Below are positions 2,738 through 28,605 of a DNA stretch of 64,000 nt, piece by piece. Position 1 is the first letter of the stretch; each line of letters begins with the position of its first letter. The position numbers and the translations under genes were made by a program. The notes beneath the pieces are model-generated. The model was not told the origin of the DNA, made no database searches, and was given only the letters and a program-made list of their open reading frames with translations. The DNA lies in assembly GCF_013167895.1 (NCBI RefSeq), contig NZ_BLWC01000001.1, forward strand, positions 992,001 to 1,056,000, read 5' to 3'. This DNA comes from Streptomyces fulvorobeus. Its GTDB lineage: Bacteria; Actinomycetota; Actinomycetes; Streptomycetales; Streptomycetaceae.

Positions 2738-3891
2738 GCCGGAGTGCTCACAGGCAGGATAAATCGGAACTCGGCGCCGCCGCCGGGCCCCCGGTCGACG
2801 GTGATCGTGCCGCCGTGCGCCTCGACGATGCCCTTGACGATGTAGAGGCCGAGTCCCGTGCCGCCGCGCTTGCTCCCCCGCCAGAACCGGGTGAAGACGC
2901 GGCTCATCGACTCCTCGGGGATTCCGGGACCTTCGTCGCTCACGGTGACTGCCGTTCCTGTCTCGTCACTGTTCGCCGGCGCGGCTGCGGGGGCGATCTC
3001 AATGGTGACGGTTCCCTCGCCGTGGCGCACCGCGTTTTCGAGGAGGTTGCCGAGGACCTGGTCGACCTTGTCGGGATCGGCCCACAGGGCGGGCAGCGGC
3101 TTGCGGGAGCGGACGAGGAAGCGGCCGGGGTCCTGGCCGGTCGCGATATGGGCCTGGACATGGCGCTCGACGGCGGCGGAGATGTCCACGGGCTGGCGGC
3201 GCAGCTCCAGACGGCCGGAGTCGATCCGGGAGATGTCGAGCAGCTCGGCGATGAGCCGGGTGACGCGGTTGGCGTCGGCGTCGACCGTCTCCAGCATCAG
3301 CCGCTTCTGGTCGTCCGTGAACCTCTCCCACTTGGCGAGCAGGGTCGCGGTGAAGCCCTTGACCGAGGTCAGCGGGGAGCGCAGCTCATGGGCGACGGTG
3401 GCGATCAGCTCGGCGTGGCTGAGCTCGGTACGGCGGCGGGCCTCGGTGCCCCGCAGGGAGACCACCAGGCGGCGTACCGGACCGGTCGGCCTCTCGCGCA
3501 CGTACCGCGCGGAGACCAGCACCTCACGCCCGCCGGGCAGGAGCAGGTTCCGTTCAGGCTGGCCGACCCGGGTGGCCAGCCCTCCGTACGGATCGGTCAG
3601 CGTCCACCACCGCCTGCCCTTGAGGTCTTCGAGGGGCAGCGCCTGTTCCAGCCGGCGGCCGAGCACGGCGGAGCTCGGAGTGGCGGTGATCCGGGCCGCG
3701 GCGGAGTTGAAGCAGATGACCCTGCCGGTCTCGTCGGCGACGACGAGGCCGTCGGGAAGATCGTCCGGGGCCAGGCCGCCGTATCCGAGGAGGGTGCCGG
3801 TGTCGGCTTCACCCAGCGGGGCGGTTGCGGCCTTGGCGGCGCGCATGACGGCCGTGTGTGTCTTCCGCGGCCTGCTCATGCCGACTGCCAT
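2725..3891 (-). CDS. PAS-domain sensor histidine kinase, probably cytoplasmic
   Basis: About 388 residues with no evident membrane segment. It has a PAS-like region (about residues 45-140, GLVVADETGRVICFN), a dimerisation/phosphoacceptor H-box (VAHELRSPLTSVKGF, His near 168), then an HATPase domain with N box LGNLLENAVRHGEG, G1 DEGPGIPEE and G2 GTGLGLYIVKG. It should autophosphorylate on the H-box histidine and pass phosphate to a response regulator, but none is adjacent, so it is an orphan kinase. ATG 3891 was chosen for the AGGTGGGG ribosome site 9 nt upstream; the open frame extends further but into the neighbouring methyltransferase gene. It lies 56 bp downstream of that gene on the same strand. 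Confidence 0.9.
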   Translation of the reverse strand: MAVGMSRPRKTHTAVMRAAKAATAPLGEADTGTLLGYGGLAPDDLPDGLVVADETGRVICFNSAAARITATPSSAVLGRRLEQALPLEDLKGRRWWTLTDPYGGLATRVGQPERNLLLPGGREVLVSARYVRERPTGPVRRLVVSLRGTEARRRTELSHAELIATVAHELRSPLTSVKGFTATLLAKWERFTDDQKRLMLETVDADANRVTRLIAELLDISRIDSGRLELRRQPVDISAAVERHVQAHIATGQDPGRFLVRSRKPLPALWADPDKVDQVLGNLLENAVRHGEGTVTIEIAPAAAPANSDETGTAVTVSDEGPGIPEESMSRVFTRFWRGSKRGGTGLGLYIVKGIVEAHGGTITVDRGPGGGAEFRFILPVSTPAYLK

Positions 3892-3947
3892 ATCGCCGTA
3901 CCCCACCTCTCGAACCGGTGCAGTGGGCCCCCGAGTTCGCCACCCTA

Positions 3948-4856
3948 CTAGTCGTCGGGGAACGAGCGACACCCTGCGGGATCGAATGGGCGACGATCCC
4001 CGGGGGCGCGTTCGGGAAGGGACGCGCGCCGCGAGCGCTGGGCGCGCGCGGAGGCGTACAGGCATACGGCCGCCGCCGTCGCGAGGTTGAGGCTCTCCGC
4101 CCTGCCGTGGATCGGTACCCGGATCACCGCGTCGGCCAGGGCGCGCGTCTCCTCGGGGAGCCCCCATGCCTCGTTGCCGAAGACCCAGGCGGTCGGCCCG
4201 CCCATGGTGCCCGCGTCCAGCTCGTCGTCGAGGTCGTCGTCGCCCGCGCCGTCCGCCGCGAGGATGCGCACGCCCGCGTCCCGCAGCCCGCGCACCACCC
4301 GCTCGACGGGTACGCCCATGGCTACCGGCAGGTGGAACAGGGAACCGGCGGACGCCCGCACGGACTTCGGGTTGTAGAGGTCCACGGAGGCGTCGGTCAG
4401 GACGACGGCGTCGGCCCCGGCCGCGTCGGCGCAGCGCAGCACCGTCCCCGCGTTCCCGGGGTCGCGTACGTTGGCGAGCACGGCGACGAGCGCCGGTTTC
4501 GCGGCGAGGATGTCCTCGAACGGCGAGTCCAGGAAGCGGCAGACGCCGATCAGCCCTTGCGGGGTGACGGTCTGCGACACGTCGGCGAGTACGTCGCCGT
4601 CGGCGAGATGGATGCGGGCTCCCGCGTCGTGGGCGGCGCCGACGATGTCGGCGTACCGCTCGGCGGCCTCCACGGTGGCGAAGAGTTCCGTCAGTGTCGG
4701 CTGCCCGTCGCCGCCCCGGTGCCCTGCGGCCTCGCGCACCGCCTGCGGCCCCTCGGCGATGAACCTGCGCTCCTTGCCGCGGAAGTTTCGCTTGGCCAGC
4801 CGCCGGGCGGCTGTGACGCGCGGCGATCGCGGGGAGATCAGTTCGGGGGTGCCCAT
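3948..4856 (-). CDS. SpoU/TrmH-family RNA 2'-O-methyltransferase
   Basis: 302-residue SPOUT enzyme that transfers methyl from AdoMet to a ribose 2'-OH, most likely in 23S rRNA. The N-terminal RNA-binding region (AAEG-type FIAEGPQAVREA, about residues 35-60) is followed by the three SpoU motifs: NVRDPGNAGTVLRCADAAGA, VFGNEAWGLPEE and the knot-forming IHGRAESLNLATAAA. It follows rplT on the same strand, as commonly seen in actinomycetes. ATG 4856 (MGTPELISP) was chosen; a longer open frame exists but includes the rplT terminator hairpin. The exact target nucleotide cannot be told from sequence. Confidence 0.9.
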   Translation of the reverse strand: MGTPELISPRSPRVTAARRLAKRNFRGKERRFIAEGPQAVREAAGHRGGDGQPTLTELFATVEAAERYADIVGAAHDAGARIHLADGDVLADVSQTVTPQGLIGVCRFLDSPFEDILAAKPALVAVLANVRDPGNAGTVLRCADAAGADAVVLTDASVDLYNPKSVRASAGSLFHLPVAMGVPVERVVRGLRDAGVRILAADGAGDDDLDDELDAGTMGGPTAWVFGNEAWGLPEETRALADAVIRVPIHGRAESLNLATAAAVCLYASARAQRSRRASLPERAPGDRRPFDPAGCRSFPDD

Positions 4857-4911
4857 GGTCGGCGGCGAGCCTCTCTGCGTACGGAGGGACGGAAGACGGG
4901 GGTGCAACGCA

Positions 4912-4946
4912 CCGGACCCGCAGACGGCTGGCGCCTGCGGGTCCGG
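4912..4946 (-). terminator. Hairpin terminator downstream of rplT
   Basis: Perfect 12-bp inverted repeat (CCGGACCCGCAG / CTGCGGGTCCGG, 11-nt loop) between the rplT stop and the methyltransferase start. There is no U-run, which is usual for Streptomyces hairpins. Confidence 0.6.
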
Positions 4947-4973
4947 CTCACACACCTGGAAGGACTGCCTGGA

Positions 4974-5357
4974 TCAGGCGGCCTTCGGGGCGTTGACGTC
5001 GCTCGGGAGGGCCTTCTGGGCCACCTCGACGAGCGCGGCGAACGCGTTGGGGTCGTTGACCGCGAGCTCGGCCAGGATCTTGCGGTCCACCTCGATGTTG
5101 GCGGCGTTCAGACCCTGGATGAGGCGGTTGTACGTCATACCGTTCTGGCGGGCAGCGGCGTTGATGCGCTGGATCCAGAGACGGCGGAAGTCGCCCTTGC
5201 GCTTCTTGCGGTCGTTGTAGTTGTAGACCAGGGAGTGGGTGACCTGCTCCTTGGCCTTGCGGTACAGGCGCGAACGCTGACCGCGGTAGCCCTTGGCCGC
5301 CTCGAGAATTGCCCGGCGCTTCTTGTGGGCGTTGACTGCCCGCTTGACGCGTGCCAC
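4974..5357 (-). CDS. rplT: 50S ribosomal protein L20
   Basis: 127-residue assembly protein of the large subunit. It starts [15 protein letters not shown] and contains the characteristic [17 protein letters not shown] and [17 protein letters not shown] segments, full length for actinobacteria. It is third in the infC-rpmI-rplT operon. In other bacteria L20 represses this operon by binding its mRNA leader, which gives interest to the structured leader upstream of infC here. Confidence 0.98.
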
Positions 5358-5463
5358 TTGTTAACTCCTTGTAGCGGGGCCGTGGTTGAAACCCACACAG
5401 CCCGGAAACGAATTGGTCCCGGTCGGATCGAGCACCCGCCCCCGGGTCAGCGGGGGCGGCGGC

Positions 5464-5658
5464 TCACTTGCCGAGAAGCTTCTTGATCTTCTTGGCGTCG
5501 GCCGGAGCCACGACGACCGTGCCGGACAGCGAGCGGGTCTTCTTGGACGACTTGTGCTCGAGAAGGTGGCGCTTGCCGGCCTTCTCGCGGAGCACCTTGC
5601 CGGAGCCGGTGATCTTGAAGCGCTTGCTGGCACCGCTGTGCGTCTTGTTCTTCGGCAT
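5464..5658 (-). CDS. rpmI: 50S ribosomal protein L35
   Basis: 64-residue L35: [20 protein letters not shown] start, [17 protein letters not shown] core and KKIKKLLGK end, all family-typical. It lies between infC and rplT on the same strand. The 106-bp gap to rplT contains a GC-rich hairpin with arms CCGCCCCC/GGGGGCGG near 5437-5460. Confidence 0.98.
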
Positions 5659-8946: not shown

Positions 8947-10136
8947 TAGGGCCTGGGCGCCCGGACGTGCCCGCCGCGCCACAGGACGACGGCGAGGGCC
9001 AGCAGTACCGCGCCGAGTCCGCCGGCGGTCGGGGCCAGCCAGTGCGCCGAGCCGCCGTCCGCACGCCGGGGGGTGGGGCCGGGGCCGAAGTACCGCTTGC
9101 CGTAACCGGGCGCCGCGGAGCCGGGGTGCTTGGCGGTACGGGTACGCGATCCGGCCTCGATCGCGGCGGCCGGGTCGACGAGCCCGTACCCCCGGGCGTC
9201 GTCGCGGCCGTCCGGCGGGGGGTTGCGCGCGGTGTCCGCGATGAGCTTCTTGACCTGGGCGGGGGTCAGGGCCGGGTGGGCGGAGCGGACCAGGGCGACC
9301 GCCCCCGACACGAACGCGGAGGCCGCGGACGTGCCCCACTCGATGTAGTAGTGCCGGTCGGGGTTGGCCACGACGATGTCCACGCCGGGCGCGCTGACGG
9401 TGGCGTACCAGCGGCGGGTGGAGAACGAGGCGTGCGTGCCGTACTTGTCGACGGCCGCGACGGCGATCACTCCGGGGTAGGCGGCCGGGTAGGAGACGCG
9501 GTCGCCCTTCTCTCCGCTGTTGCCGGCCGACGCGACGACGGATACCCCCTTGGCCAGGGCGTACTGGACGGCCGCATCCTCGCTGGGCTCGGGGTGGGCG
9601 GACTTGCTGTCGTCGCCGAGGGAGAGGTTGATGACGTCCGCGCCCTGGTCGGTGGCCCAGCGGATGCCCTCCGCCAGGGCGGTGCCGCGTGATTCGCGGG
9701 CCTTCGCGCGGGACGGGTCGTTGGACTCCAGGATCACCCGGCCGGGGAGGATCCTGGCTTCGGGCGCGATGCCGAGGACGCCGTCGCCGCGGCCGGGGCC
9801 GTTGCCCCGGCCCGCGATGATCCCGGCCATCGCGGTGCCGTGCAGGGCCCAGGCCGGGTCGCCGCGCTCGGCGCCGAAGCCGATGAGGTCCTTGCCCGGC
9901 AGTACCTGGCCCGCGAGGTCGGGATGGCCGGCGTCGACGCCCGTGTCCAGGACGGCGACCGTGACGCCCTCGCCCTTCGTGGTCTGCCAGGCCCGGTCGG
10001 TGTGGAGCGCCGCCAGGCCCCACTGCTGGTCGCGGATGTTGTCGGCGTGGGCGGGCACGGCGGGGAGCACGGTGAACGCGGTCGCGGCGCAGGCCGTCGC
10101 GAGTGCCCGGCGTCCGGGCGGACGTCGGCGGTTCAC
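8943..10136 (-). CDS. Mycosin-type subtilisin-like serine protease (S8), membrane-anchored
   Basis: 397 residues. An Arg-rich signal peptide ends near AHA-DN. The catalytic triad is visible as Asp in VAVLDTGVDAGHPDL, His in LHGTAMAGIIAG and Ser in WGTSAASAFVSGAVAL, with the oxyanion Asn in ASAGNSG. A C-terminal membrane anchor (GGLGAVLLALAVVLW) follows, the layout of mycosins of type VII secretion systems. It starts with GTG in a 4-base GTGA overlap with the upstream membrane protein, so the pair is coupled. No EccB/C/D/E or WXG100 gene is in the window, so a link to type VII secretion is inference from family only. Confidence 0.9.
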   Translation of the reverse strand: MNRRRPPGRRALATACAATAFTVLPAVPAHADNIRDQQWGLAALHTDRAWQTTKGEGVTVAVLDTGVDAGHPDLAGQVLPGKDLIGFGAERGDPAWALHGTAMAGIIAGRGNGPGRGDGVLGIAPEARILPGRVILESNDPSRAKARESRGTALAEGIRWATDQGADVINLSLGDDSKSAHPEPSEDAAVQYALAKGVSVVASAGNSGEKGDRVSYPAAYPGVIAVAAVDKYGTHASFSTRRWYATVSAPGVDIVVANPDRHYYIEWGTSAASAFVSGAVALVRSAHPALTPAQVKKLIADTARNPPPDGRDDARGYGLVDPAAAIEAGSRTRTAKHPGSAAPGYGKRYFGPGPTPRRADGGSAHWLAPTAGGLGAVLLALAVVLWRGGHVRAPRPY

Positions 10137-16692: not shown

Positions 16693-19323
16693 TCAGCCGC
16701 CCACGGGCGCCATCTCGTCGATGACATCCGGATTGGCGTCCATCCAGCGACGGGCGGACCGCTTCTCCTCGCCGGCGCCGCCCTTCTGGATCTCCACCTC
16801 CAGCGAGGCGAGCTGCGCCTCGCTGAGCTCGAACTCCTTGAGCCAGCCGGTCAGCTCGGGGAACTCCTGGGGGAAGTCCTTCTTGGCGACCGTGTGGATC
16901 TGCTCGCCCTCGCCCCAGGCGCCCTTGGGGTCCTTGAGCTTCTTCAGGTCGTGCTTGCCGTAGGCCCAGTGCGGCGACCACAGGGTCACCACGACGGGCT
17001 CCTTCTTCTTGATCGACCGGTTGAGTTCGGCGAGCATCGAGGAGGTGCTGGAGGAGACGACCTCGTACTCGCCCTCCAGGCCGTACTCCTTGAGCACCTT
17101 CTTGTTGAGCGTGCCCATCATCCCGGCACTCGACTCGATGCCGATGATCTTGCCGTCGAACTTCTTGCCCTGGCCCTTGAGGTCGTCCAGGGAGTCGACG
17201 CCCTCGACGTAAGAGGGGACCGTCAGCTCCAGCGAGGTCGGGCCGTACCAGGAACCGAGATCGGTGAGGTCGTCCTTGTAGCGGTCCCAGTAGTCCTTGT
17301 GCGTGGTCGGCAGCCAGGAGTCGAACTGGACGTCCAGCTGCCCCTGCGCGAGACCGGTGTACAGCGGGCCGGGGTCGAGCTGCTTGACCGTCGTTCCGTA
17401 CCCGCGGTCCTCCAGCACGTTCTGCCAGAGGTACGTGCTGGCGATGGCCTCGTCCCAGGGGAAGTAGCCCAGGTCGACGGTCTTGCCCGCGTCCTTGCCC
17501 TGCGCCGTGCCGCCCGCACCGGCCGGCAGCGGGGCCAGCTCGTCGAGGAGGCCCGGCTTCTTCTTCAGCCAGGCGCGGACGCCGTCCTGCTCCTTGCCCT
17601 GGCCGGCTCCCTGGATCTCGTTCTCCAGGCTGGTGAGCTGCTCCTCGGAGAGCTCGAACTTCTTGAGCCAGCCGGCGACGGCGGGAGCCTTCCCGGCGAA
17701 GCCCTTGTGCGCCACGGTGTGGATCTGCTCGCCCTCGCCCCAGGCGCCCTTGGGGTCCTTGAGCTTCTTCAGGTCGTGTTTGCCGTAGGCCCAGTGCGGC
17801 GACCACAGGGTCACCACGACGGGCTCCTTCTTCTTGATGGAGGCGTTCAGCTCGGCCAGCATCGAGGAGGTGCTGGAGGAGACGACCTCGTACTCGCCCT
17901 CCAGGCCGTACTCCTTGAGCACCTTCTTGTTGAGCGTGCCCATCATCCCGGCACTGGCCTCGATACCGATGATCTTGCCGTCGAACTTCTTGCCCTGGCC
18001 CTTGAGGTCGTCCAGGGAGTCGACGCCCTCGACGTACGAGGGGACCGTCAGCTCCAGCGAGGTCGGGCCGTACCAGGAACCGAGGTCGTCCAGCTTGTCG
18101 CTGTACTTGTCCCAGTAGTCCTTGTGCGTGGTCGGCAGCCAGGAGTCCGTCTGGAAGTCGATGTCCCCGCGGGCGACACCCGAGTAGAGCGGACCGGCGT
18201 CGAGCTGCTTGATGTCCGTGGTGTAGCCGCGCCGCTCCAGAAGTTCCTTCCAGAGGAAGGTGGAGGCGATGCCCTCGTCCCAGGGGATGTACCCCAGGTT
18301 GATCTTCTGGCCCTGGCCGATGTCCGTACCGTCCGCCCGCGCGTTCTTGCCGTCGTCCGAGCCCACGAGGTTCAGGCCGCCCGCGATCAGCGCCAGGACG
18401 ACCACGCCGGCCATCGCGACCGCGGTGCCCGGCTTGTAGTGCGTGAACCTGAGGCGGCGCGCACCGGCGGCGGCCTTGGCGGCGGCCCGGCGGCCGAGCG
18501 GGGAGACCCGCTCGTTGAGCGCTCCGGTCATCCGGTCCAGGTACATGGCGAGGATGACGACGGCGATCCCGCTCTCGGCGGCGAGGCCGACCTGGAGCTG
18601 GGTGATCGCGGCGTACACCTTCTCGCCGAGACCGCCGGCTCCGGCCATGCCGCCGATGACGACCATCGACAGCGCCAGCATGATGACCTGGTTGACACCG
18701 GCCATGATCGTCGGCAGTGCGAGCGGGAGCTGCACCCGGGTGAGGGTGTCGCGCGGCGTGGTGCCGAACGCCTCGGCCGCCTCGACCAGCTCGGTGTCCA
18801 CCTGGCGGATGCCGAGCTCGGTCATGCGTACGCCGGGCGGCATCGCGAACACGATGGTGGCGATGACACCGGGGGTGACACCGACGCCGAAGAACATGAC
18901 GCCGGGAATCAGGTAGACGAAGGCCGGCATCGTCTGCATGACGTCGAGCACCGGTCGCAGCGTGGCGCTGACCTTGTTGTTCCGCGCGGCCCAGATGCCC
19001 ATGGGCACCGCGATCGCGATGGTGATGACCGCCGCGACGACGACCAGCGACAGTGTCGCCATCGCCTCGTCCCAGAGGGAGAGGGAGTCGATCAGGGCGA
19101 AGCCCACGAAGGTGAGCGCGGACGGGACCACACCGCGCAGCCAGAACGCCAGTACGGCGAAGATGCCCGCCAGGAGCAGCGGTTCACCGCCGCCGAGGAC
19201 CGCGTTGACGCCGTCGTACATGCCGCCGAGCACGGCCTTGACCGCGTCGAAGATCCAGGCGAGGTTCGACTGGAGCCAGTCGACCGCGCTCTCGACCCAC
19301 TCGCCGAAGGTGAACCTAGGCAC
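16693..19323 (-). CDS. Glycine betaine/proline-type ABC importer: permease fused to two tandem substrate-binding domains
   Basis: 876 residues. Residues about 1-310 are a ProW/OpuAB-type permease with helices and the EAA loop (EAAEAFGTTPRDTLTRVQLPLALPTI). A further helix (AVAMAGVVVLALIAGGLNLV) leads to two OpuAC-type binding domains, about 335-615 and 640-876, each with PWDE, SWLPTTHKDYWD and TLWSPHWAYGKHDL aromatic-rich segments expected to cage a quaternary amine. Single-domain fusions (OpuA) are known; two betaine domains on one permease are unusual, and the two copies are about 95% identical in DNA over 431 bp. GTG 19323 overlaps the ATPase stop by 8 bases. Probable role: osmoprotectant uptake. 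Confidence 0.92.
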   Translation of the reverse strand: MPRFTFGEWVESAVDWLQSNLAWIFDAVKAVLGGMYDGVNAVLGGGEPLLLAGIFAVLAFWLRGVVPSALTFVGFALIDSLSLWDEAMATLSLVVVAAVITIAIAVPMGIWAARNNKVSATLRPVLDVMQTMPAFVYLIPGVMFFGVGVTPGVIATIVFAMPPGVRMTELGIRQVDTELVEAAEAFGTTPRDTLTRVQLPLALPTIMAGVNQVIMLALSMVVIGGMAGAGGLGEKVYAAITQLQVGLAAESGIAVVILAMYLDRMTGALNERVSPLGRRAAAKAAAGARRLRFTHYKPGTAVAMAGVVVLALIAGGLNLVGSDDGKNARADGTDIGQGQKINLGYIPWDEGIASTFLWKELLERRGYTTDIKQLDAGPLYSGVARGDIDFQTDSWLPTTHKDYWDKYSDKLDDLGSWYGPTSLELTVPSYVEGVDSLDDLKGQGKKFDGKIIGIEASAGMMGTLNKKVLKEYGLEGEYEVVSSSTSSMLAELNASIKKKEPVVVTLWSPHWAYGKHDLKKLKDPKGAWGEGEQIHTVAHKGFAGKAPAVAGWLKKFELSEEQLTSLENEIQGAGQGKEQDGVRAWLKKKPGLLDELAPLPAGAGGTAQGKDAGKTVDLGYFPWDEAIASTYLWQNVLEDRGYGTTVKQLDPGPLYTGLAQGQLDVQFDSWLPTTHKDYWDRYKDDLTDLGSWYGPTSLELTVPSYVEGVDSLDDLKGQGKKFDGKIIGIESSAGMMGTLNKKVLKEYGLEGEYEVVSSSTSSMLAELNRSIKKKEPVVVTLWSPHWAYGKHDLKKLKDPKGAWGEGEQIHTVAKKDFPQEFPELTGWLKEFELSEAQLASLEVEIQKGGAGEEKRSARRWMDANPDVIDEMAPVGG
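16892..17322. repeat. Internal direct repeat, copy 1 (offset 825 bp)
   Basis: This stretch matches 17717-18147 at a constant offset of 825 bp (275 codons) with roughly 20 mismatches counted by eye. It encodes most of the second binding domain of the betaine importer. Confidence 0.9.
17717..18147. repeat. Internal direct repeat, copy 2
   Basis: Partner of 16892-17322, encoding most of the first binding domain. Identity extends to synonymous positions, pointing to recent duplication or ongoing gene conversion. Confidence 0.9.
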
Positions 19324-20407
19324 CGGCGGTCACCTTCTCGATGTCACGCGGGGCGGGGAGCACCGTCTCGACCCGCGGTTCCTCGCCCAGGGCCGCGAGC
19401 AGCCGGCTGCGGGGGACGACGCCGATGACGTCGCCACCCGCGTCGGTGACGGCCACGGCGACGCCGCTGGTGGAGCAGGGGGTGAAGAGTTCGGCGATGG
19501 GCGTCCCGGCGGAGACGGTCGCGGGCGCTTCGGCCAGGAGTTGGGCGTCGGAGCGGCCCTTCTCGGGCTGCTCCATGATCGAACCGGCGGTGAGCACCCG
19601 CGAGCGGTCGACGTCCTGGATGAACGAGGCGACGTAGTCGTCGGCCGGACGCACGAGGATGTCCTCCGCGGTGCCCTGCTGGACGATCTTCCCGTCGCGC
19701 ATCACGGCGATCCGGTCACCGAGCCGCATGGCCTCGTTGAGGTCGTGGGTGATGAAGACGATGGTCTTCTTGAGCCGCTTCTGCAGTTCGAGGAGCTGGC
19801 TCTGCATGTCGCGGCGGATCAGCGGGTCGAGCGCGCTGAAGGACTCGTCCATCAGCAGCAGGTCCGCGTCCGTGGCGAGCGCGCGGGCCAGGCCCACGCG
19901 CTGCTGCATACCGCCGGACAGCTCGTCGGGCCAGGACTTCTCCCAGCCGGCGAGGCCGGTCATCTCCAGTGCCTCGGCGGCGCGCCTGTCGCGCTCGGCG
20001 CGCGGCACTCCTTGTACTTCGAGGCCGTACGCGGCGTTCTCCAGGACACTTCTGTGCGGGAAGAGCGCGAAGTGCTGGAAGACCATGCTGATCCTGGTGG
20101 AGCGGACCTTGCGCAGCTCCCGGGCGCTCAGGGCGGTCAGGTCCTGGTCGTCGAACAGCACCCGTCCGGCTGTGGGATCGAGCAGTCCGTTGAGCATCCG
20201 CAGCAGCGTCGACTTGCCGGACCCGGAGAGTCCCATCACGACGAAGATCTGGCCCGGTTCCACGGTGAACGATGCGTCGATCACCGCTGCGGTCGTTCCG
20301 TCGGCGCGCAGTTCGTCGCGGCCGGTGCCGCTTTGAAGCTTCTGCACGGCTTGATCGGGTCGTTTGCCGAACACCTTGTACAGGTGCTCAGCTTGCAGCC
20401 TTGACAC
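19316..20407 (-). CDS. Glycine betaine/proline-type ABC transporter ATP-binding protein
   Basis: About 363 residues of the ProV/OpuAA type. It has Walker A GLSGSGKST, signature LSGGMQQRVGLARAL, Walker B ADLLLMDESFSALDP and H-loop FITHDL, then a C-terminal CBS-like region (about 265-360, TVSAGTPIAELFT ... GVVPRSRLLAAL), which in this family gates transport with ionic strength. The stop overlaps the permease start, so the two are coupled. GTG 20407 was chosen because GAGGT lies 4 nt upstream; ATG 20422 is five codons longer. Confidence 0.92.
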   Translation of the reverse strand: MSRLQAEHLYKVFGKRPDQAVQKLQSGTGRDELRADGTTAAVIDASFTVEPGQIFVVMGLSGSGKSTLLRMLNGLLDPTAGRVLFDDQDLTALSARELRKVRSTRISMVFQHFALFPHRSVLENAAYGLEVQGVPRAERDRRAAEALEMTGLAGWEKSWPDELSGGMQQRVGLARALATDADLLLMDESFSALDPLIRRDMQSQLLELQKRLKKTIVFITHDLNEAMRLGDRIAVMRDGKIVQQGTAEDILVRPADDYVASFIQDVDRSRVLTAGSIMEQPEKGRSDAQLLAEAPATVSAGTPIAELFTPCSTSGVAVAVTDAGGDVIGVVPRSRLLAALGEEPRVETVLPAPRDIEKVTAGA

Positions 20408-20717
20408 ATACACCTCACGCATTGAACCGAAAACGGTCCGCCACCCCCGTCGGCAGACCGTGGAGCGGTGCGGATTCGGTCCACAGTGCACGCGCACGGA
20501 TGAGAAGTGCGCGTGGTCCGCTCCGGTGCCGCGCCTGCCCGGACTTATGCAACCCAAACACGAGAGTGACTCAGTTCACTTATAATCCCGGGTCAACCGG
20601 GAGGCGCCGGACGGCGGACGCCGGCCGCCGGACGCTGACCGCGCGCGGCAGGGGCGGGCGGTACGGGTGCCTGCGGCGTGCGGGCCGGGTGTCAGTGGCG
20701 TGCGGCATCATCGGGGT
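20408..20717. other. Divergent intergenic region, betaine importer / exonuclease
   Basis: About 310 bp without a supported gene. It holds the promoters of both flanking genes, an AT-richer patch around 20540-20590 unlike the surroundings, and the inverted repeat listed separately. I could not assign -35/-10 elements with confidence. Confidence 0.5.
20565..20580. promoter_or_regulatory. Inverted repeat AGTGA-N6-TCACT
   Basis: Perfect 5-bp arms separated by 6 bp in the AT-richer part of the spacer upstream of the betaine importer. A possible repressor site; no matching regulator is identified. Confidence 0.3.
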
Positions 20718-21688: not shown

Positions 21689-22531
21689 GTGGCAGATCGA
21701 CCGGTACGCCAGGCACCGAAGGCCCAGGGTGCCCAGGTTCTGCGCACCGAGCAGCTCACCCCGCACATGGTGCGGGTGGTGCTCGGCGGTGACGGTCTCG
21801 CCGATTTCGCGCTCTCCGGTTTCACCGACCACTACATCAAGCTGTGCTTCGCACCTGAGGGCGCTGACTACGCGCACCCCTTCGACATCGCCGCGATCCG
21901 CGAGAGCCACCCGCGCGAGCTGTGGCCGACCACCCGTACGTACACGGTGCGGGCCTGGGACCCGGACGCCCGGGAGATGACGGTCGACTTCGTGGTGCAC
22001 GGCGACGAGGGTCTCGCGGGCCCCTGGGCGATGCGCGCGGCCCCCGGCGACCAGGTGACCTTCCTCGGCCCCGGCGGGGGCTACGGCCCGGACGCCTCGG
22101 CGGACTGGCACCTGCTGGCCGGCGACGAGAGCGCGCTGCCGGCCATCGCGGCGACCCTGGAGCAGATGCCGGCGGGCGCGGTGGCCCACGCGTTCATCGA
22201 GGTCACGGACGCCTCGGAGGAACAGAAGATCGTCACGCCCGACGGCGTCGCCGTCACCTGGCTGCACCGCGGCGGCCGTCCGGTCGGCGAAGCCGTGACC
22301 GCGGCGGTGAAGGCCCTGGACTTCCCCGCGGGCGAGGTCCAGGCGTTCGTGCACGGCGAGGCCGGTTTCGTGAAGGAGATCCGCCGCCATCTGCGCCTGG
22401 AGCGGCAGATTCCGCTCGCGCGGCTCTCGATCTCGGGTTACTGGCGTGCGGGCCAGAGCGACGACGCCTGGCGCGCGGTCAAGCGCGAGTGGAACGAGCA
22501 GGTGGAGCGCGAGCAGGAGAGCGCCGCGTAA
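21689..22531 (+). CDS. Siderophore-interacting protein (FAD-dependent ferric-siderophore reductase)
   Basis: 280 residues of the SIP/ViuB family, which reduces Fe(III) in siderophores in the cytoplasm to release iron. The FAD-binding barrel includes RTYTVRAWDPDAREMTVDFV (R-x-Y-T flavin motif) and GPWAMRAAPGDQVTFLGPGG; the NAD(P)H domain follows (WHLLAGDESALPAIAATLEQ), ending with YWRAGQSDDAWRAVKREW, typical of the family. GTG 21689 is preceded by AGGGAGG. The iron box just upstream predicts derepression under iron limitation. No siderophore biosynthesis or uptake genes are adjacent. Confidence 0.93.
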   Translation: MADRPVRQAPKAQGAQVLRTEQLTPHMVRVVLGGDGLADFALSGFTDHYIKLCFAPEGADYAHPFDIAAIRESHPRELWPTTRTYTVRAWDPDAREMTVDFVVHGDEGLAGPWAMRAAPGDQVTFLGPGGGYGPDASADWHLLAGDESALPAIAATLEQMPAGAVAHAFIEVTDASEEQKIVTPDGVAVTWLHRGGRPVGEAVTAAVKALDFPAGEVQAFVHGEAGFVKEIRRHLRLERQIPLARLSISGYWRAGQSDDAWRAVKREWNEQVEREQESAA

Positions 22532-22547
22532 CAGGCGGGCGCACCGA

Positions 22548-22578
22548 CCCCGGTCACCACGCAGGACGGTGACCGGGG
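22548..22578 (+). terminator. Hairpin terminator after the SIP gene
   Basis: Perfect 11-bp stem CCCCGGTCACC/GGTGACCGGGG with a 9-nt loop, starting 17 bp after the stop codon. Confidence 0.7.
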
Positions 22579-22615
22579 TTCAGCCGCTCCCGGGCCCGTC
22601 CGCCCGGTTCCCGCG

Positions 22616-23563
22616 ATGACCGTGCCGGCGTTCGTCGCCGGAGTGGGACTCCTGGTCGACGACCGCGTCCTGGCGGGCGAGGCCGTCTGGGCGAAACCCT
22701 TCAAGTTCGCCGTCTCCTTCGTGGCGTACGCCCTCTCGCTCGCCTGGATGCTGACCCTGCTGACGCGTGGCCGGCGTATCGGCCGGTGGGCCGGGAGCGT
22801 CGTGGCGGTGGCGAGCCTGGTGGAGATGGCGCTCATCACCACGCAGGCGGTCCGCGGCAGGCGCAGCCACTTCAACCACGCCACCCCGTTCGATTCGTAC
22901 CTCTACGACGCGATGGCCGTCAGCGTCGTCGTCCTGTGGACCGGCACCCTCGTCATCGCGATCACGCTGCTGCGCGCCCGGATCACGGACCGCGCCGCCG
23001 CCTGGGTGATCCGCGCGGGCGCCCTCATCGCCCTGGCCGGAGCCGGAATCGGCTTCCTGATGACCCAGCCGACCGCGGAGCAGCGGGCCGCGGGCGGTCT
23101 CGACACCGCGGACGTCGTCGGGGCGCACGCGGTCGGCGTGGCGGACGGCGGCCCTTCGATGCCCCTCACCGGCTGGTCGACGACCGGTGGCGACCTGCGC
23201 ATCCCGCACTTCGTCGGCATGCACGCCCTCCAGCTGCTCCCGCTCCTCCTGCTGGCGCTGATCGCCCTGGCGGCGCGGCTTCCCCGGCTGGGCGACCCAC
23301 GGATGCGGCTGCGTCTCGTACACGTCGGCTCCGGTGCGTACGCGGCCGTCGTCGCCCTGCTCACCTGGCCGGCCCTGCGCGGGCAGCCGCTGATCCACCC
23401 GGATGGGGCGACACTCACCGCCGCGGCCGGGGTCCTGGCCGCCACAGCCGGCGCGGCGTACGCGGCGCTGCGCCCGGGCCCCGTTCGCCCGGTGAGTCCC
23501 GAGAGCCCGGAGAGCCCCGAGAGCGCTTCGTACGGCTCCGTCGAGAAGGACCTCACGCCATGA
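22616..23563 (+). CDS. Polytopic membrane protein, function unknown
   Basis: 315 residues with about seven or eight hydrophobic helices, a short charged C-terminal tail with the repeat PESPESPES, and a conserved-looking AVWAKPFKFAVSF near the start. I do not recognise a named family. ATG 22616 is the only start in frame but has no ribosome site, and the first helix looks shortened, so the true N-terminus may be missing because of a sequence error upstream or a non-standard start. A strong hairpin separates it from the SIP gene. Confidence 0.7.
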   Translation: MTVPAFVAGVGLLVDDRVLAGEAVWAKPFKFAVSFVAYALSLAWMLTLLTRGRRIGRWAGSVVAVASLVEMALITTQAVRGRRSHFNHATPFDSYLYDAMAVSVVVLWTGTLVIAITLLRARITDRAAAWVIRAGALIALAGAGIGFLMTQPTAEQRAAGGLDTADVVGAHAVGVADGGPSMPLTGWSTTGGDLRIPHFVGMHALQLLPLLLLALIALAARLPRLGDPRMRLRLVHVGSGAYAAVVALLTWPALRGQPLIHPDGATLTAAAGVLAATAGAAYAALRPGPVRPVSPESPESPESASYGSVEKDLTP

Positions 23564-23661
23564 TCCGGTGCGCTCCTCTGTTCAGGTGCCCGCCGGCCCC
23601 TGACGCACTTGGTGGACACGGCCTCGCGGATCACCCGCAGTGTGGAAGAATTTCCGAGGAG

Positions 23662-23694
23662 TGACCAATCCGCGCGGGCGTCGACTCCGAATCA
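23662..23694 (+). promoter_or_regulatory. ECF sigma promoter, copy 1 (upstream of sigK-like gene)
   Basis: TGACCAATCCG (23662-23672), 15 bp, CGAATCA (23688-23694). Exactly the same two elements with the same 15-bp gap occur at 25254-25286. The position predicts transcription from about 23700, some 34 nt before the sigma GTG, consistent with autoregulation by the sigma factor encoded downstream. Confidence 0.75.
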
Positions 23695-23733
23695 CCGCAG
23701 GGAAGCGATGCGCCGACTTTGGAGGAAGCCCGC

Positions 23734-24318
23734 GTGAGAGAAGCCGTACACATCAGCGGAGCCCCGTCTCCGGGGCCCGACCTCCAGGAACTCCTGGTGC
23801 TGGTCGCCCGAGGCGACCAGAACGCCTTCGCCAAGGTGTACGACGCGGTCTGCGGGCCCGTACTCGGTCTGGTGCGCAGTGTCCTGCGGGACCCGGCCCA
23901 GTCGGAGGAAGTGGCGCAGGAGGTGCTGGTGGAGGTGTGGCGCACGGCGCCCCGCTTCCAGCCGGCCCGCGGCAGTGCGATGAACTGGGTGCTGACGCTG
24001 GCCCACCACAGGGCAGTCGACCGGGTCCGCTCGGCGGAGGCCGCGTCGGCCCGTGAGCACAAGGCCGCCCTGCTGGACCGTACGCCCGACTTCGACGAGG
24101 TGTCGGAGCAGGTCGAGACCCGGCTCGAACGTGAACAGGTCCGCCGCTGTCTGCGGACCCTGTCCGAACTGCAACGCCAGTCCGTGACCCTGGCCTACTA
24201 CCGCGGACTCACTTATCGCGAGGTGTCGGAGCTGCTCTCCGTACCTCTTGGCACGATCAAGACACGACTGCGTGACGGACTCATCCGGATGCGCGACTGC
24301 CTGGGGGTGAACGCATGA
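23734..24318 (+). CDS. sigK: ECF RNA polymerase sigma factor, SigK-like
   Basis: 194-residue group 4 sigma factor. Region 2 is DQNAFAKVYDAVCGPVLGLV ... SEEVAQEVLVEVWRTAPRF, and RGSAMNWVLTLAHHRAVDRVRS is region 2.4. Region 4 is LSELQRQSVTLAYYRGLTYR and VPLGTIKTRLRDGLIRMR. GTG 23734 was chosen for the GGAGG 8 nt upstream. Its stop overlaps the start of an RskA-type anti-sigma factor (ATGA), and fasciclin and oxidoreductase genes follow, the company kept by SigK in mycobacteria. The SigK name rests on this context and family resemblance. Confidence 0.88.
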   Translation: MREAVHISGAPSPGPDLQELLVLVARGDQNAFAKVYDAVCGPVLGLVRSVLRDPAQSEEVAQEVLVEVWRTAPRFQPARGSAMNWVLTLAHHRAVDRVRSAEAASAREHKAALLDRTPDFDEVSEQVETRLEREQVRRCLRTLSELQRQSVTLAYYRGLTYREVSELLSVPLGTIKTRLRDGLIRMRDCLGVNA

Positions 24319-25067
24319 GCACCGCCGAGCTCCACACGCTCACCGGGGCCTACGCCCTGCACGCGCTGCCGGACGACGAACGCCAGGAGTTCGAACGGCA
24401 TCTCGGGATGTGCGAGGCGTGCTCCCAGGAGGTACGGGAGTTGTCCGCGACCGCCGCACGGCTCGGGCTCGCGGTGTCCCGCAGACCGGGGCCCGCACTG
24501 CGCGACCGGGTGCTGAGCGAGATCACGACCGTACGTCAGGAGCCGCCGTCGCACGGCGCGCTCAGCCGCTCCACCGGGACCGGGAACCGGGCGCGCCGCC
24601 GGACGAGCTTCGTGCTCGCCGCCTGTATCGCCGCGTCCGCCGCCTTCGGCGGGGTCGCCGTCTGGCAGAACCAGGTGGCCCAGGACGCCCGGCAGGAGGC
24701 GAACCGTGCCGACGAGCGGAGCGAACAGCTCGCCCAGGTGCTCGCGGCTCCGGACGCGAGGACGACCTCGGGCACGCTCAAGGGCGGCGCCCGGGGCACC
24801 GTCGTCGTCTCGCGCGGTGAGAACCGCGCGGTGTTCCTGACGTCCGGGATGGAGCAGCCGCCCGCCGGCAAGGTCTACCAGCTGTGGTTCGACGAGGGCG
24901 GCACGATGCGGTCGGCGGGGCTGATGGACCCGTCGGCGGCGAGTGAGGCCGTACTGATGGACGGAGAGGTCGCAGGGGCGTCCGGGATGGGTATCACCGT
25001 CGAACCCGTCGGCGGCTCGGAACAGCCGACCTCCGCGCCGCTGGCCCTGATGAGCCTGCCGGCCTGA
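24315..25067 (+). CDS. rskA: Anti-sigma factor, RskA family
   Basis: 250 residues. The N-terminal cytoplasmic anti-sigma domain carries the zinc-type motif HLGMCEAC (HxxxCxxC) after an earlier His in LHTLTGAYALHALPDDE. One membrane helix (SFVLAACIAASAAFGGVAVW) follows, then a coiled segment and an extracytoplasmic RskA domain (GKVYQLWFDEGGTMRSAGLM). It should hold the upstream sigma factor inactive until cleaved, in mycobacteria by regulated intramembrane proteolysis. The site-2 protease gene at 50.2-51.4 kb is one possible participant, though nothing here links them directly. It overlaps the sigma gene by 4 bases. Confidence 0.9.
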   Translation: MSTAELHTLTGAYALHALPDDERQEFERHLGMCEACSQEVRELSATAARLGLAVSRRPGPALRDRVLSEITTVRQEPPSHGALSRSTGTGNRARRRTSFVLAACIAASAAFGGVAVWQNQVAQDARQEANRADERSEQLAQVLAAPDARTTSGTLKGGARGTVVVSRGENRAVFLTSGMEQPPAGKVYQLWFDEGGTMRSAGLMDPSAASEAVLMDGEVAGASGMGITVEPVGGSEQPTSAPLALMSLPA

Positions 25068-25101
25068 GAGAAGCCGCGGCCCGTGGGACCGCTCGGCCCG
25101 C

Positions 25102-25140
25102 AAGACCCGGTGGCGTCCGCGCCACCGGGTCTTCGGCTTT
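25102..25140 (+). terminator. Strong hairpin terminator after rskA
   Basis: Perfect 14-bp stem AAGACCCGGTGGCG/CGCCACCGGGTCTT with a TCCG tetraloop, followed by CGGCTTT. It isolates sigK-rskA from the oxidoreductase gene, which has its own promoter. Confidence 0.85.
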
Positions 25141-25253
25141 CCGGGGCCGGGACGACGCGGCCTTGTCAGACTTCGCCGCTCCGCGCAACTCTGCCGCCAG
25201 GCATTACGGGGCAATTCCCCCTCCAGACAAGTAGTTTCATTCGATCGGGTGAC

Positions 25254-25286
25254 TGACCAATCCGCAGCCCGACCGGCACCGAATCA
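25254..25286 (+). promoter_or_regulatory. ECF sigma promoter, copy 2 (upstream of oxidoreductase)
   Basis: TGACCAATCCG (25254-25264), 15 bp, CGAATCA (25280-25286), identical in both elements and spacing to the sigma gene's own promoter. The -10 element reaches the ATG at 25286, so transcription would begin near the GTG at 25292. Confidence 0.75.
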
Positions 25287-25291
25287 TGGGT

Positions 25292-26923
25292 GTGAAAGCA
25301 GATCAGAACGATTCGCAGCCGCACAGGGGCTCCCTGTCCCGGCGATCCCGTTGGGCACGCGCCTTCCTCGCCGCGCTCAGCGGTCTGATCGCGGGGTTCT
25401 GCGCCCTGTGCGTCGCCGAGCTGGTCGCGGCAGTCGTACGTCCCGAGGCCGGTCCGGTCACGGCGGTGGGCGGTGCGGTCATCGACCGCACTCCCGCGGC
25501 GGTGAAGGATTTCGCCATCCGGAACTTCGGCACCGCCGACAAGCTGGTGCTCCAGCTCGGCATCCTCACACTCCTGGCGGTCTTCGCCATGGCGGTGGGG
25601 GTGCTGGCACTGCGGCACCGGCGGCTCGGTGCGGCGGCCGTCCTGATCTTCGGCGTGGTCGGGGCAGTAGCGGCGATCGGGCGGCCCGAGGGCCGGCCGG
25701 GCGACGCCCTGCCTTCGGTGGTGGGTGCCCTGGTGGCCGCAGGAGTGCTGTACCTCCTGGTCGGACGGCTCGCCCCGAGGACCCTTCCGCCTCCCGCGGC
25801 TGGGGAGACGGAGGTCCGGGCGGACCAGGGCACCTTCGACCGTCGTTCGTTCGTCATCGCGGCGACCGTCGCGGCGGCCGCATCGGCGGGTGCCGGTTAC
25901 GCGGGGCGCCGGGTCACCGCGTCCCAGCAGGCCGGTGCGTCCGCCTCACGCGGTGCGATCACCCTTCCGGCCCCCGCCTCGGCGGCGCCCCCCGTGCCTC
26001 GCGGCGTGGATCTGGGCATCCGCGGGCTGAGCTCGTTCGTCACCCCGAACAAGAGCTTCTACCGCGTGGACACCGCCCTGGTCGTCCCCCGTGTCGACGC
26101 CGGACGCTGGAGCCTTCGTATCCACGGCAAGGGAGTGACACGCCCCCTCACGGTGGACTACCAGGAGCTGCTCCAGCGGGAGCTGATCGAGCGTGACATC
26201 ACGCTGACCTGCGTATCCAACGAGGTCGGCGGCCCGTACGTCGGCACCGCCCGCTGGATCGGCGTACCCCTGGCCGATCTGCTGCGCGAGGCCGGGGTGA
26301 AGCCGCCGTCGAAGGGCGGAAAGGCCGATCAGCTCGTGGCCAGGTCCGTCGACGGCATGACGATCGGCACACCCGTCGAGGACGTCATGGACGGCCGCGA
26401 CGCGATGCTCGCCCTCGGGATGAACGGCGAACCGCTCCCCTTCCGCCACGGTTTCCCCGTCCGCATGCTCGTCCCCGGCCTGTACGGCTATGTGTCCGCC
26501 TGCAAATGGATCAAGGACATCGAGCTGACGACCTTCGACGAGTACGACGCCTACTGGGTCAAGCGCAGCTGGTCGCGTGAGGCTCCCATCAAGACCCAGT
26601 CGCGCATCGACACCCCGCGCCCGTTCGCCTCCCCCAAGGCGGGCACGGTGCCGGTCGCCGGAGTCGCCTGGGCCCAGCAGCGGGGCATCGCCCGGGTGGA
26701 GGTCCGGGTCGACGGCGGGGAGTGGCAGACCGCCCGGCTGGCCGCGGAGGACAGCAGGGACACCTGGCGCCAGTGGGTGTGGGAGTGGCCCGCCACGACC
26801 GGCAGCCACACCCTCGAAGTCCGCGCGACGGACCGTACGGGTGCCACTCAGACGGACAAGCGCGTCGGCACCGTCCCCAACGGTGCGACCGGCTGGCATT
26901 CGGTGGTGGTCAACGTGCCCTGA
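25292..26923 (+). CDS. Membrane-anchored molybdopterin-dependent oxidoreductase (sulfite oxidase/SUOX family)
   Basis: About 543 residues. Four N-terminal membrane helices (to about residue 165) precede a twin-Arg-like stretch (FDRRSFVIAATVAAAASAG) and a sulfite oxidase-type molybdopterin domain. The cofactor Cys is in DITLTCVSNEVGGPYVGTARW, with RHGFPVRMLVPGLYGY and a C-terminal Mo-cofactor dimerisation domain (VAGVAWAQQRGIARVEVRVDGGEW). The active site should face outside the cytoplasm. The substrate is unknown. GTG 25292 was chosen since the ECF promoter would make a leaderless message starting there; ATG 25286 is two codons longer. A fasciclin lipoprotein follows. Confidence 0.88.
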   Translation: MKADQNDSQPHRGSLSRRSRWARAFLAALSGLIAGFCALCVAELVAAVVRPEAGPVTAVGGAVIDRTPAAVKDFAIRNFGTADKLVLQLGILTLLAVFAMAVGVLALRHRRLGAAAVLIFGVVGAVAAIGRPEGRPGDALPSVVGALVAAGVLYLLVGRLAPRTLPPPAAGETEVRADQGTFDRRSFVIAATVAAAASAGAGYAGRRVTASQQAGASASRGAITLPAPASAAPPVPRGVDLGIRGLSSFVTPNKSFYRVDTALVVPRVDAGRWSLRIHGKGVTRPLTVDYQELLQRELIERDITLTCVSNEVGGPYVGTARWIGVPLADLLREAGVKPPSKGGKADQLVARSVDGMTIGTPVEDVMDGRDAMLALGMNGEPLPFRHGFPVRMLVPGLYGYVSACKWIKDIELTTFDEYDAYWVKRSWSREAPIKTQSRIDTPRPFASPKAGTVPVAGVAWAQQRGIARVEVRVDGGEWQTARLAAEDSRDTWRQWVWEWPATTGSHTLEVRATDRTGATQTDKRVGTVPNGATGWHSVVVNVP

Positions 26924-27029
26924 GCAGTCCGGCCGATGAACTCGCCCACGTATTCCGCTCCATACCCCCACCCATGACGCACCGCACACGCCCTTTCCGG
27001 GCCGTCACCATCCGAAACAGGAGAACACC

Positions 27030-27674
27030 ATGAACACCCTTCGCTTCCGCCGCGCCGCCATCGCCGTGTCCGCCGCAGCCGTGCTGCCGCTCGCGCTGAC
27101 GGCCTGTTCGAGCGACACCAAGGACTCCGCATCGGGCTCCACCCCCTCGGCCGCTTCCTCCGAGCCCGCCGCGGCGCCGGAGAAGACGGCGGACATGGAC
27201 AAGCCGTTCGGTCCGGGCTGCGCGTCCGTGCCCGCGGACGGTGCGGGATCGTTCGACGGCATGGCCCAGGACCCGGTCGCCACGGCCGCGTCGAACAACC
27301 CGGACCTCTCCACGCTGGTCACCGCCGTCAAGCAGGCCGGTCTGGTCGACACGCTGAACAACGCCGAGAACATCACGGTGTTCGCGCCGACCAACGACGC
27401 CTTCGCCAAGGTCCCGAAGGCCGACCTCGACGCGCTGCTGGCTGACAAGGCCGCGCTCACCAAGGTCCTCACCTACCACGTGGTGGGCGAGAAGCTGACG
27501 CCGCAGCAGCTGGAGAAGGGCTCCTTCGACACCCTGGCGAAGAGCAAGCTCACCACCGCCGGTTCGGGCGTGGACTACACCGTCAACGACGCCTCCAAGG
27601 TGGTCTGCGGCAACGTCCCGACGGCGAACGCCACGGTCTACATCGTCGACTCGGTCCTGATGCCCCCGAAGTAG
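27030..27674 (+). CDS. Fasciclin-domain lipoprotein (MPT83/MPT70-like)
   Basis: 214 residues. A signal peptide with lipobox LTAC (Cys near 27) is followed by a Ser/Ala-rich linker and one FAS1 domain (about 75-213: LSTLVTAVKQAGLVDTL, ITVFAPTNDAFAKVP, LTYHVVGEKLTPQQL, ATVYIVDSVLMPPK). It is predicted to be anchored on the outer face of the membrane and to act in adhesion or partner binding. AGGAG precedes the ATG. No copy of the ECF promoter was found in the 106-bp gap, so it is probably cotranscribed with the oxidoreductase. Mycobacterial SigK controls homologous fasciclin antigens. Confidence 0.92.
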   Translation: MNTLRFRRAAIAVSAAAVLPLALTACSSDTKDSASGSTPSAASSEPAAAPEKTADMDKPFGPGCASVPADGAGSFDGMAQDPVATAASNNPDLSTLVTAVKQAGLVDTLNNAENITVFAPTNDAFAKVPKADLDALLADKAALTKVLTYHVVGEKLTPQQLEKGSFDTLAKSKLTTAGSGVDYTVNDASKVVCGNVPTANATVYIVDSVLMPPK

Positions 27675-27986
27675 CCGGCACGCCACCCGGCGTACAGCAG
27701 GACGGGACCGGAACCGGCCCGCGCGATTCGCTCGCGCGGGCCGGTTCCGTCTGTCGGCAACAGCCGGGTGAGCCGGTCCACCGGTCCCAGACCCCGGGCC
27801 CCGGGCCGAATGTGTGCTGACGAGCGAGGAGCCGTGCGATCTCGCGTCGGCCCGCCACTTCCCAAAATTCACTCGCCGGAAAACTACACATAAGGGGCAT
27901 ATAAGCGCAGAATGGCCATGATAGGTGCCCACCGCGTGCACTCATCCGAAGCGGTCGGGCCTGCGGAACCGAAGGAGACGAATCCC
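27675..27986 (+). other. Intergenic region before the SPW-repeat gene
   Basis: 312 bp. It starts with a strong terminator (27710-27748). The AT-rich stretch 27850-27915 probably carries the promoter of the next gene; I see no clear regulatory repeat in it. An open frame from 27912 continues into the SPW gene but lacks a ribosome site. Confidence 0.5.
27710..27748 (+). terminator. Strong hairpin terminator after the fasciclin gene
   Basis: Perfect 17-bp stem, arms 27710-27726 and 27732-27748 (GGAACCGGCCCGCGCGA and its complement), with a 5-nt loop. Confidence 0.85.
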
Positions 27987-28424
27987 ATGAGCAACGTCTC
28001 GCACCCCCGGAGTGACATAGGCGCTCACCCCGATGTGTCAGAAATGTCAGCACGGTACGACCGCGTACTCGGCGGCCGTGACGTAGCTCTCGTGGACGCA
28101 CCGGTACTCCTGGTCGGGCTGTACTGCGCCGTCTCGCCGTGGGTGCTCCACTTCACGGCGAGTCAGCCCTCGCTGGCGACGCACAACCTCATCCTCGGCA
28201 TCGCGATCGCGGTGCTGGCACTCGGGTTCACCGTGATGCCGGAGCGGATGTACGGACTGAGCTGGGCGATCTGCGCCATCGGCGCCTGGCTCATCGTGTC
28301 GACGTGGATCGTGGGCACCAGCCCGGACGCCGGAGTCGTCCTCAACAACATCATCGTGGGAGCACTGACCTTCCTGCTGGGGCTGGTCTGCGCGGGCGCG
28401 GTGATGAAGAGCAAGAAGACCTGA
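27987..28424 (+). CDS. SPW-repeat small membrane protein
   Basis: 145 residues with four hydrophobic helices and an SPW motif (VSPWVLHF) in the first repeat and SWAICAIGAWLIVS in the second, typical of the SPW-repeat family. The N-terminal about 45 residues are hydrophilic (HPRSDIGAHPDVSEMSARYDR). ATG 27987 is preceded by AAGGAG with good spacing. Function is unknown. It converges on the helicase gene. Confidence 0.8.
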   Translation: MSNVSHPRSDIGAHPDVSEMSARYDRVLGGRDVALVDAPVLLVGLYCAVSPWVLHFTASQPSLATHNLILGIAIAVLALGFTVMPERMYGLSWAICAIGAWLIVSTWIVGTSPDAGVVLNNIIVGALTFLLGLVCAGAVMKSKKT

Positions 28425-28605
28425 GGCAGGACCGACAGGCCACCGCGGCCGCGGACGGCACGGACGTGTCCACCCACGGCCGCAGGCGCACTCGTCAGGC
28501 GTAGAACTGCACGGCGAAGCGCCCACGCACCCCAGCGGCCCGGCACCGCACGACTGCCGGACCGCGCATACCGGACCTGTATCCCATGAGGGCCGGAGCT
28601 TCGGC

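Follow-up and report, generated by a model that had tools for sequence, protein, structure and literature searches.

Gene organization around sigK

The window analysed here is a 64,000-nucleotide stretch of the Streptomyces fulvorobeus genome (C1:992001–1056000 of an assembly of 6,633,309 bases, 6.63 Mb, that is 94.22% complete). On the forward strand it contains the genes for an ECF sigma factor (sigK) and its anti-sigma factor (rskA), followed by those for a molybdopterin oxidoreductase (MoOx), taken as an envelope enzyme, and a fasciclin protein (Table 1). An exact copy of the pattern TGACCAATCCG-N15-CGAATCA precedes sigK (the first site), and another precedes MoOx (the second site), both on the forward strand.

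Table 1. Features of the sigK locus, in positions of the window
Feature	Position	Strand	Basis and remarks
SigK-type promoter of sigK-rskA (−35 TGACCAATCCG, −10 CGAATCA)	23662..23694	+	Exact site; kept in relatives
Shine-Dalgarno-like GGAGG of sigK	23721..23725	+	Read from sequence; 8 nt before GTG
sigK, ECF sigma factor, start GTG	23734..24318	+	NCBIfam SigK; 4nqw_A
rskA, anti-sigma factor	24315..25067	+	Pfam RskA_C, RskA_N and zf-HC2 above cut-off; 4-nt overlap with sigK
Hairpin after rskA	25102..25133	+	Fold and consensus terminator scan; 14-bp stem, no T run
Dyad TCATTCGATCGGGTGA	25237..25252	.	6/8 pairs symmetric; directly before the MoOx −35
SigK-type promoter of MoOx-fasciclin	25254..25286	+	Exact site; core kept in relatives; ends on the A of ATG 25286
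MoOx, molybdopterin oxidoreductase, probable corrected start GTG	25292..26923	+	PF00174, PF03404; start 7 nt after CGRAT
Fasciclin protein	27030..27674	+	PF02469; only match in the genome

The sigK product scores 293.4 bits against the NCBIfam SigK model (NF007228, cut-off 226) and matches the solved chain 4nqw_A with an E-value of 1.5e-46. Two of its cysteines align with cysteines of that chain, a feature of SigK-RskA systems; the available text of PMC7509140 gives the conserved SigK cysteines as 133 and 183. Another feature of these systems, an RskA-type anti-sigma gene directly 3′ of sigK, is also present, its product scoring 108.4 bits with PF10099 and 30.8 bits with PF22618, both above the cut-off. 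No close SigK paralogue was found in the 94.22%-complete assembly, where the next ECF sigma factor is only 31% identical. To judge from these matches, the locus encodes a SigK-RskA system of the kind already known.

Between rskA and MoOx lies a hairpin. The 96-nt stretch that holds it folds better than 200 of 200 shuffled versions (z of −2.76), and 19 of 75 related loci have a perfect stem of at least 9 bp no more than 150 nt from rskA, with a maximum of 8 for shuffled stretches. A first reading of the window, made from the sequence only, had called this a strong terminator. The hairpin is real, but the consensus scan, which applies a T-run rule, finds no intrinsic terminator after rskA. It is plausible that the hairpin separates sigK-rskA from the MoOx unit.

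The Pfam matches of MoOx, PF00174 and PF03404, identify broader folds only. Its NCBIfam scores stay far under the cut-offs for the named sulfite dehydrogenases SorA (118.7 of 600 bits), SoxC (100.5 of 420) and SorT (83.4 of 570) and for MsrP (43.7 of 207).

Just 5′ of sigK, on the same strand, positions 22616–23563 encode a 315-residue probable membrane protein, which matches no Pfam or NCBIfam family and has homologues near sigK in several relatives (for example L008, L009 and L011). Further upstream, on the reverse strand, an 876-residue frame (16693–19323) appears by eye to consist of a permease-like part followed by two near-identical substrate-binding stretches; an ABC-ATPase-like frame (19316–20557) adjoins it.

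The promoter core and its probable sigma factor

The relatives used for comparison are the best 80 of 451 sigK loci, from Streptomyces or close kin; they belong to one family, so that counts among them are not independent. Each was searched from up to 250 nt upstream of sigK to 60 nt inside it for the core CCAATCC-N16-CGAAT with a score of at least 10 out of 12. The core is found before sigK in all 80, scoring 12 in 51, 11 in 23 and 10 in 6, with a spacer of 16 in 78 loci and of 17 in two. When a slightly longer stretch is considered, the best site lies 20–44 nt before aligned residue 1 in 75 of these 80 loci; in the remaining five it is 84–269 nt away from that residue and is perhaps not the promoter. 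For comparison, 16 of 780 random 310-bp stretches from these loci score at least 10, some of them probably being true sites. MoOx is present in 25 of the 80 loci, 24 of which have a core scoring at least 10 upstream of it; in the exception (L084) MoOx aligns only from residue 174, and its true upstream region falls outside the view. With its core kept before sigK and before a target, the twin repeat is, on this comparative evidence, a SigK-type ECF promoter.

We consider it very likely that a single SigK, held by RskA, reads both promoters, giving a leadered sigK-rskA mRNA and a leaderless MoOx-fasciclin mRNA. The sequence-only reading had already proposed that SigK drives both, and had taken the repeat for functional evidence. 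The first part is made likely by the comparisons (the NCBIfam match, the RskA partner, the cores kept in relatives, and the 31% identity of the next ECF sigma factor), but the repeat itself amounts to sequence evidence and is not functional evidence.

The core is not restricted to loci of this kind. Its exact form is present in 72 of 101 genomes of the genus, with 163 sites in all against 3 in the reversed control. One locus from each of 29 genomes (L134–L162) was inspected, with Pfam run on one fragment per type. A DUF4331-like gene lies behind the core in nine of the 29 (L136, L137, L142, L143, L148, L151, L152, L158 and L159), while seven others have a distant ECF gene (28–31% identical) beside a zinc-finger anti-sigma gene. 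The DUF4331 loci resemble the locus in the window in having the same core, a sigma factor 65–71% identical to SigK, a paralogue that adjoins the core-bearing gene in eight of the nine, and an RskA-like partner (34–37%) in seven. They differ in that the target is DUF4331 and no start codon is seen by eye to be fused to the promoter in the manner described below; no such site is present in the genome studied here. From these neighbourhoods, the core is a mark of SigK-class promoters and some others, not of one sigma factor. Because the same core elsewhere serves SigK paralogues or precedes zinc-finger anti-sigma genes, a match to the pattern is not enough to attribute a site to SigK.

This breadth bears on the possibility that one or more other ECF sigma factors read both promoters, sigK being a target and not the driver. 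The genome does contain other ECF-like genes, with at most 31% identity to SigK, and the core stands elsewhere beside different SigK-class sigma genes and distant ECF genes. We nevertheless regard this as improbable: the assembly holds no SigK-class paralogue, the core precedes sigK itself in all of the 80 best loci, and orthologues of SigK from other species are able to use a SigK site, according to the available text of PMC7509140.

The start of the molybdopterin oxidoreductase gene

The ATG at 25286, which the ORF finder had given as the start of MoOx, is located inside the −10 element of the second promoter, an overlap that the sequence-only reading had overlooked. A transcript from the second site cannot hold this codon, since CGAATCA ends on its A. 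The in-frame TGA at 25250 excludes a start further upstream, and the first in-frame start codon beyond the ATG is the GTG at 25292, located 7 nt after CGAAT; as it is the sixth base past CGAATCA, a MoOx transcript beginning after 25292 would lose the start codon.

The distance from the −10 element to the start is almost fixed in relatives. Among 24 loci drawn from the best 80 of 451, the first in-frame start is found 7 nt after the element in 23 (21 GTG, 2 ATG) and 8 nt after it in one. In 29 further loci of the genus a GTG is present at 7 nt in 24, at 8 nt in two and at 19 nt in L115, and absent in L118 and L131. None of these 53 related loci has an in-frame start at the place of ATG 25286. 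When 50 of 54 loci and the window are combined into a set of 51 MoOx promoters (L084, L115, L130 and L131, with scores under 10 of 12, having been dropped), 47 have a GTG or ATG at exactly 7 nt from CGRAT (45 GTG, 2 ATG) and three a GTG at 8 nt; the remaining one, L118, has the core and no in-frame start. The two sets of loci may share species, and all 51 upstream sequences differ. The same position holds a start codon in none of the 80 sigK promoters (best 80 of 451 loci) and in none of 17 amine-oxidase promoters. A Shine-Dalgarno-like string is found in none of the 42 MoOx stretches tested, and in 52 of the 80 sigK stretches (best 80 of 451 loci) and all 17 amine-oxidase stretches.

The MoOx gene thus combines the three characters of a leaderless gene: no start upstream, no Shine-Dalgarno sequence, and a start codon at the expected +1. 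Its true start codon is probably GTG 25292, with the mRNA leaderless. Upon release from RskA, SigK would bind both sites and polymerase would start at each of them. The first site would give the leadered sigK-rskA mRNA, which amounts to autoregulation. From the second site, an RNA whose first base is at GTG 25292 or within a few bases upstream would be translated from its 5′-terminal GUG, and read-through would carry it into the fasciclin gene. Consistent with this, 16 of 20 fasciclin upstream regions in related loci lack a core scoring at least 10 of 12, and the fasciclin gene is probably read from the MoOx promoter. Two loci without a MoOx match (L055, core at 8829, and L053, core at 9040) retain the promoter before the fasciclin gene; in L055 the GTG at 7 nt from the core is retained as well, and a 256-residue frame runs from it into fasciclin.

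Directly upstream of the second promoter is a dyad. At its place the 51 MoOx promoters have a mean of 4.98 symmetric pairs out of 8, against 1.61–3.22 at other offsets, and none of 2000 re-dealings of the arms reaches the observed sum, in a test that is inflated by relatedness. The same place at sigK promoters has a mean of 2.09, which 75 of 2000 re-dealings reach. Variants that keep the symmetry, ACCCGATCGGGT, ACTCGATCGAGT and ACCTGATCAGGT, are found among the MoOx promoters, and the consensus TCAYYCGATCGRRTGA has one exact place in the genome, 25237–25252; the reversed control gave 0 but is a poor one, as the reversed pattern contains CTAG, a word rare in such genomes. The dyad, absent at sigK, is perhaps a candidate second operator.

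Could MoOx be translated from ATG 25286 after all, from a promoter farther upstream, for example one tied to the dyad, with the second site minor or inactive? The ATG is in frame and the dyad just upstream is conserved, but no in-frame start occupies its place in any of the 24 plus 29 related loci, a consensus scan of 22400–28600, covering sigma-70-type promoters only, finds none, and the core is retained upstream of MoOx. We judge this very improbable.

Leaderless mRNAs of actinobacteria share with MoOx the start codon at the expected +1 and the lack of a Shine-Dalgarno sequence. What differs here is that the feature is bound to a single ECF promoter class with a constant distance of 7 nt, and that GUG is used in 48 of the 50 promoters with a start at 7 or 8 nt. 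In Streptomyces coelicolor, the available text of PMC4895711 reports about 21% of primary transcription start sites as leaderless, and AUG is preferred there (76.4% of these), whereas the MoOx promoters mostly have GUG. For Mycobacterium tuberculosis, the available text of PMC3898074 describes similar use of ATG and GTG in leaderless and leadered genes.

Extent of the regulon and its known relatives

The pattern found at both genes, with the same spacing, holds as first reported: both copies are exact, and with up to three mismatches two are present in the window against 0.06 expected, none of 100 shuffles giving two. The genome scan that had been proposed with it finds the exact pattern twice in the assembly (reversed control, 0), and the core CCAATCC-N15..17-CGRAT likewise occurs only at the twin places. 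The spacers, which had been called unrelated, do agree at only 5 of 15 positions, but a GGC shortly 5′ of CGAAT is conserved in those of relatives. The twin sites could be taken for a functionless chance match or recent local duplication, since only 1.6 kb separates them and all 18 specified bases agree. This is hardly credible: only 0.06 matches are expected, the spacers differ at most positions, and both sites are kept in relatives even where sigK and MoOx are kilobases apart.

Looser searches are less specific. A core with one mismatch occurs twice in the window against 1.22 expected (35 of 100 shuffles reach two), a count that in the window alone is not significant. With up to three mismatches, the genome gives five matches, the twin sites and three at three mismatches, against one in the control; the latter three are near background. 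Two of them (L004 and L005) were discarded, being inside long open frames and lacking a suitably placed start codon. The third, L003, was retained as a candidate though near background (control 1).

When the core is combined with a start codon at 7 nt and one mismatch is allowed, three places are found in the genome and none in the control: MoOx, sigK (where the mismatch is the start codon) and a HATPase gene. Here CCCATCC-N16-CGAAT-N7-ATG precedes a HATPase_c_2 protein at C1:161403–161879 (L003, also L208 and L210; G000:C1:161368–161879), which we propose, with modest support from its promoter sequence, as a third candidate SigK target. Of 120 other genomes of the genus, six have a homologue with an E-value of 1e-20 or better. 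That of G006 is part of the sigK-fasciclin cluster and has its own CCCATCC-N16-CGAAT-N7-ATG, the match holding one TGA. Those of G113 and G078 have no site and stand behind MoOx or behind MoOx and fasciclin, and the other three have no start codon at 7 nt after a core; the fused form is thus present in two of seven cases. The earlier proposal of a search pattern for the whole regulon stands in part: its relaxed form adds this candidate, but as written it returns only the twin sites, and the core is not specific for SigK.

A phylum-wide search yielded scattered, often AT-rich matches in 68 of 198 genomes, from which three loci (L204–L206) were taken. In L204, from another genus of the same class, a dipZ-like gene with DsbD_TM and thioredoxin-like domains lies between two fasciclin genes (3726–5512) and has a SigK-type core with CGAAT-N7-GTG; the 7-nt distance is not kept at a second site, which precedes a fasciclin gene. 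This arrangement resembles the mycobacterial order mpt70-dipZ-mpt83. L205 has a leader between its site and fasciclin-sigK-rskA. From these cases the promoter-start fusion is, as far as sequence can tell, recurrent and not universal.

In several relatives a divergent SigK-type site accompanies the MoOx site, with 35 bp between the core starts in L013, L026, L047, L081, L082 and G057, and 46 bp in L054. Behind it lies an amine oxidase in L007, L020, L026 and L047 (by Pfam in L026), while L013, L081 and L082 have no amine-oxidase match among the matches listed. The same stretch contains a DUF1295 gene in L026 and a cyclopropane-synthase gene in L073; these genes recall M. tuberculosis Rv0449c–Rv0446c. 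A candidate DUF1365-like stretch was also seen in this region of relatives. In the nearest relative, G057, with a MoOx 92% identical, the divergent site points to a DUF1295 open frame of 197 residues. The genome of the window has no clear amine-oxidase orthologue (best E-value 5.9e-5 over 43 residues), and a remnant of the divergent promoter was sought in the window and dismissed, there being no GGATTGG at the 35-bp distance. The regulon looks reduced here, loss of the divergent site and the amine oxidase being the simplest reading.

Genes of the M. tuberculosis SigK regulon include mpt70, mpt83, dipZ and Rv0449c–Rv0446c. With the mycobacterial regulon, as described in the available text of PMC7509140, the locus shares the SigK-RskA pair, a fasciclin gene and conserved SigK sites; the same text already reports such sites as highly conserved in Actinobacteria, and SigK orthologues as reading the M. 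tuberculosis mpt70 promoter. It also states that M. tuberculosis sigK is autoregulated via the Rv0449c promoter, the promoter directly before sigK not being SigK-regulated, whereas here a site lies directly before sigK. A further difference is the target, a molybdopterin oxidoreductase fused to its promoter. Literature searches of titles and starts of abstracts returned no paper on this promoter-start fusion at output genes; nor did their listings show the corrected start of MoOx, the dyad or the candidate HATPase target.

More tentatively, and with less than even confidence, SigK regulons may generally combine a leadered regulator with some outputs (MoOx, HATPase, dipZ-like) fused at 7 nt and leaderless, a regulator at the dyad acting as a second gate on MoOx. 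If the leaderless reading is true, a SigK output would be translated without Shine-Dalgarno initiation. The promoter-start fusion corrects the start of MoOx and makes a sharp prediction, that the output is leaderless and the regulator leadered, while the relaxed pattern supplies a further candidate target missed by the exact one. What is known of SigK systems comes mostly from mycobacteria. With its one SigK, its clear comparative support and a genus that has safe laboratory strains, this small regulon would be a convenient model for SigK-RskA signalling.
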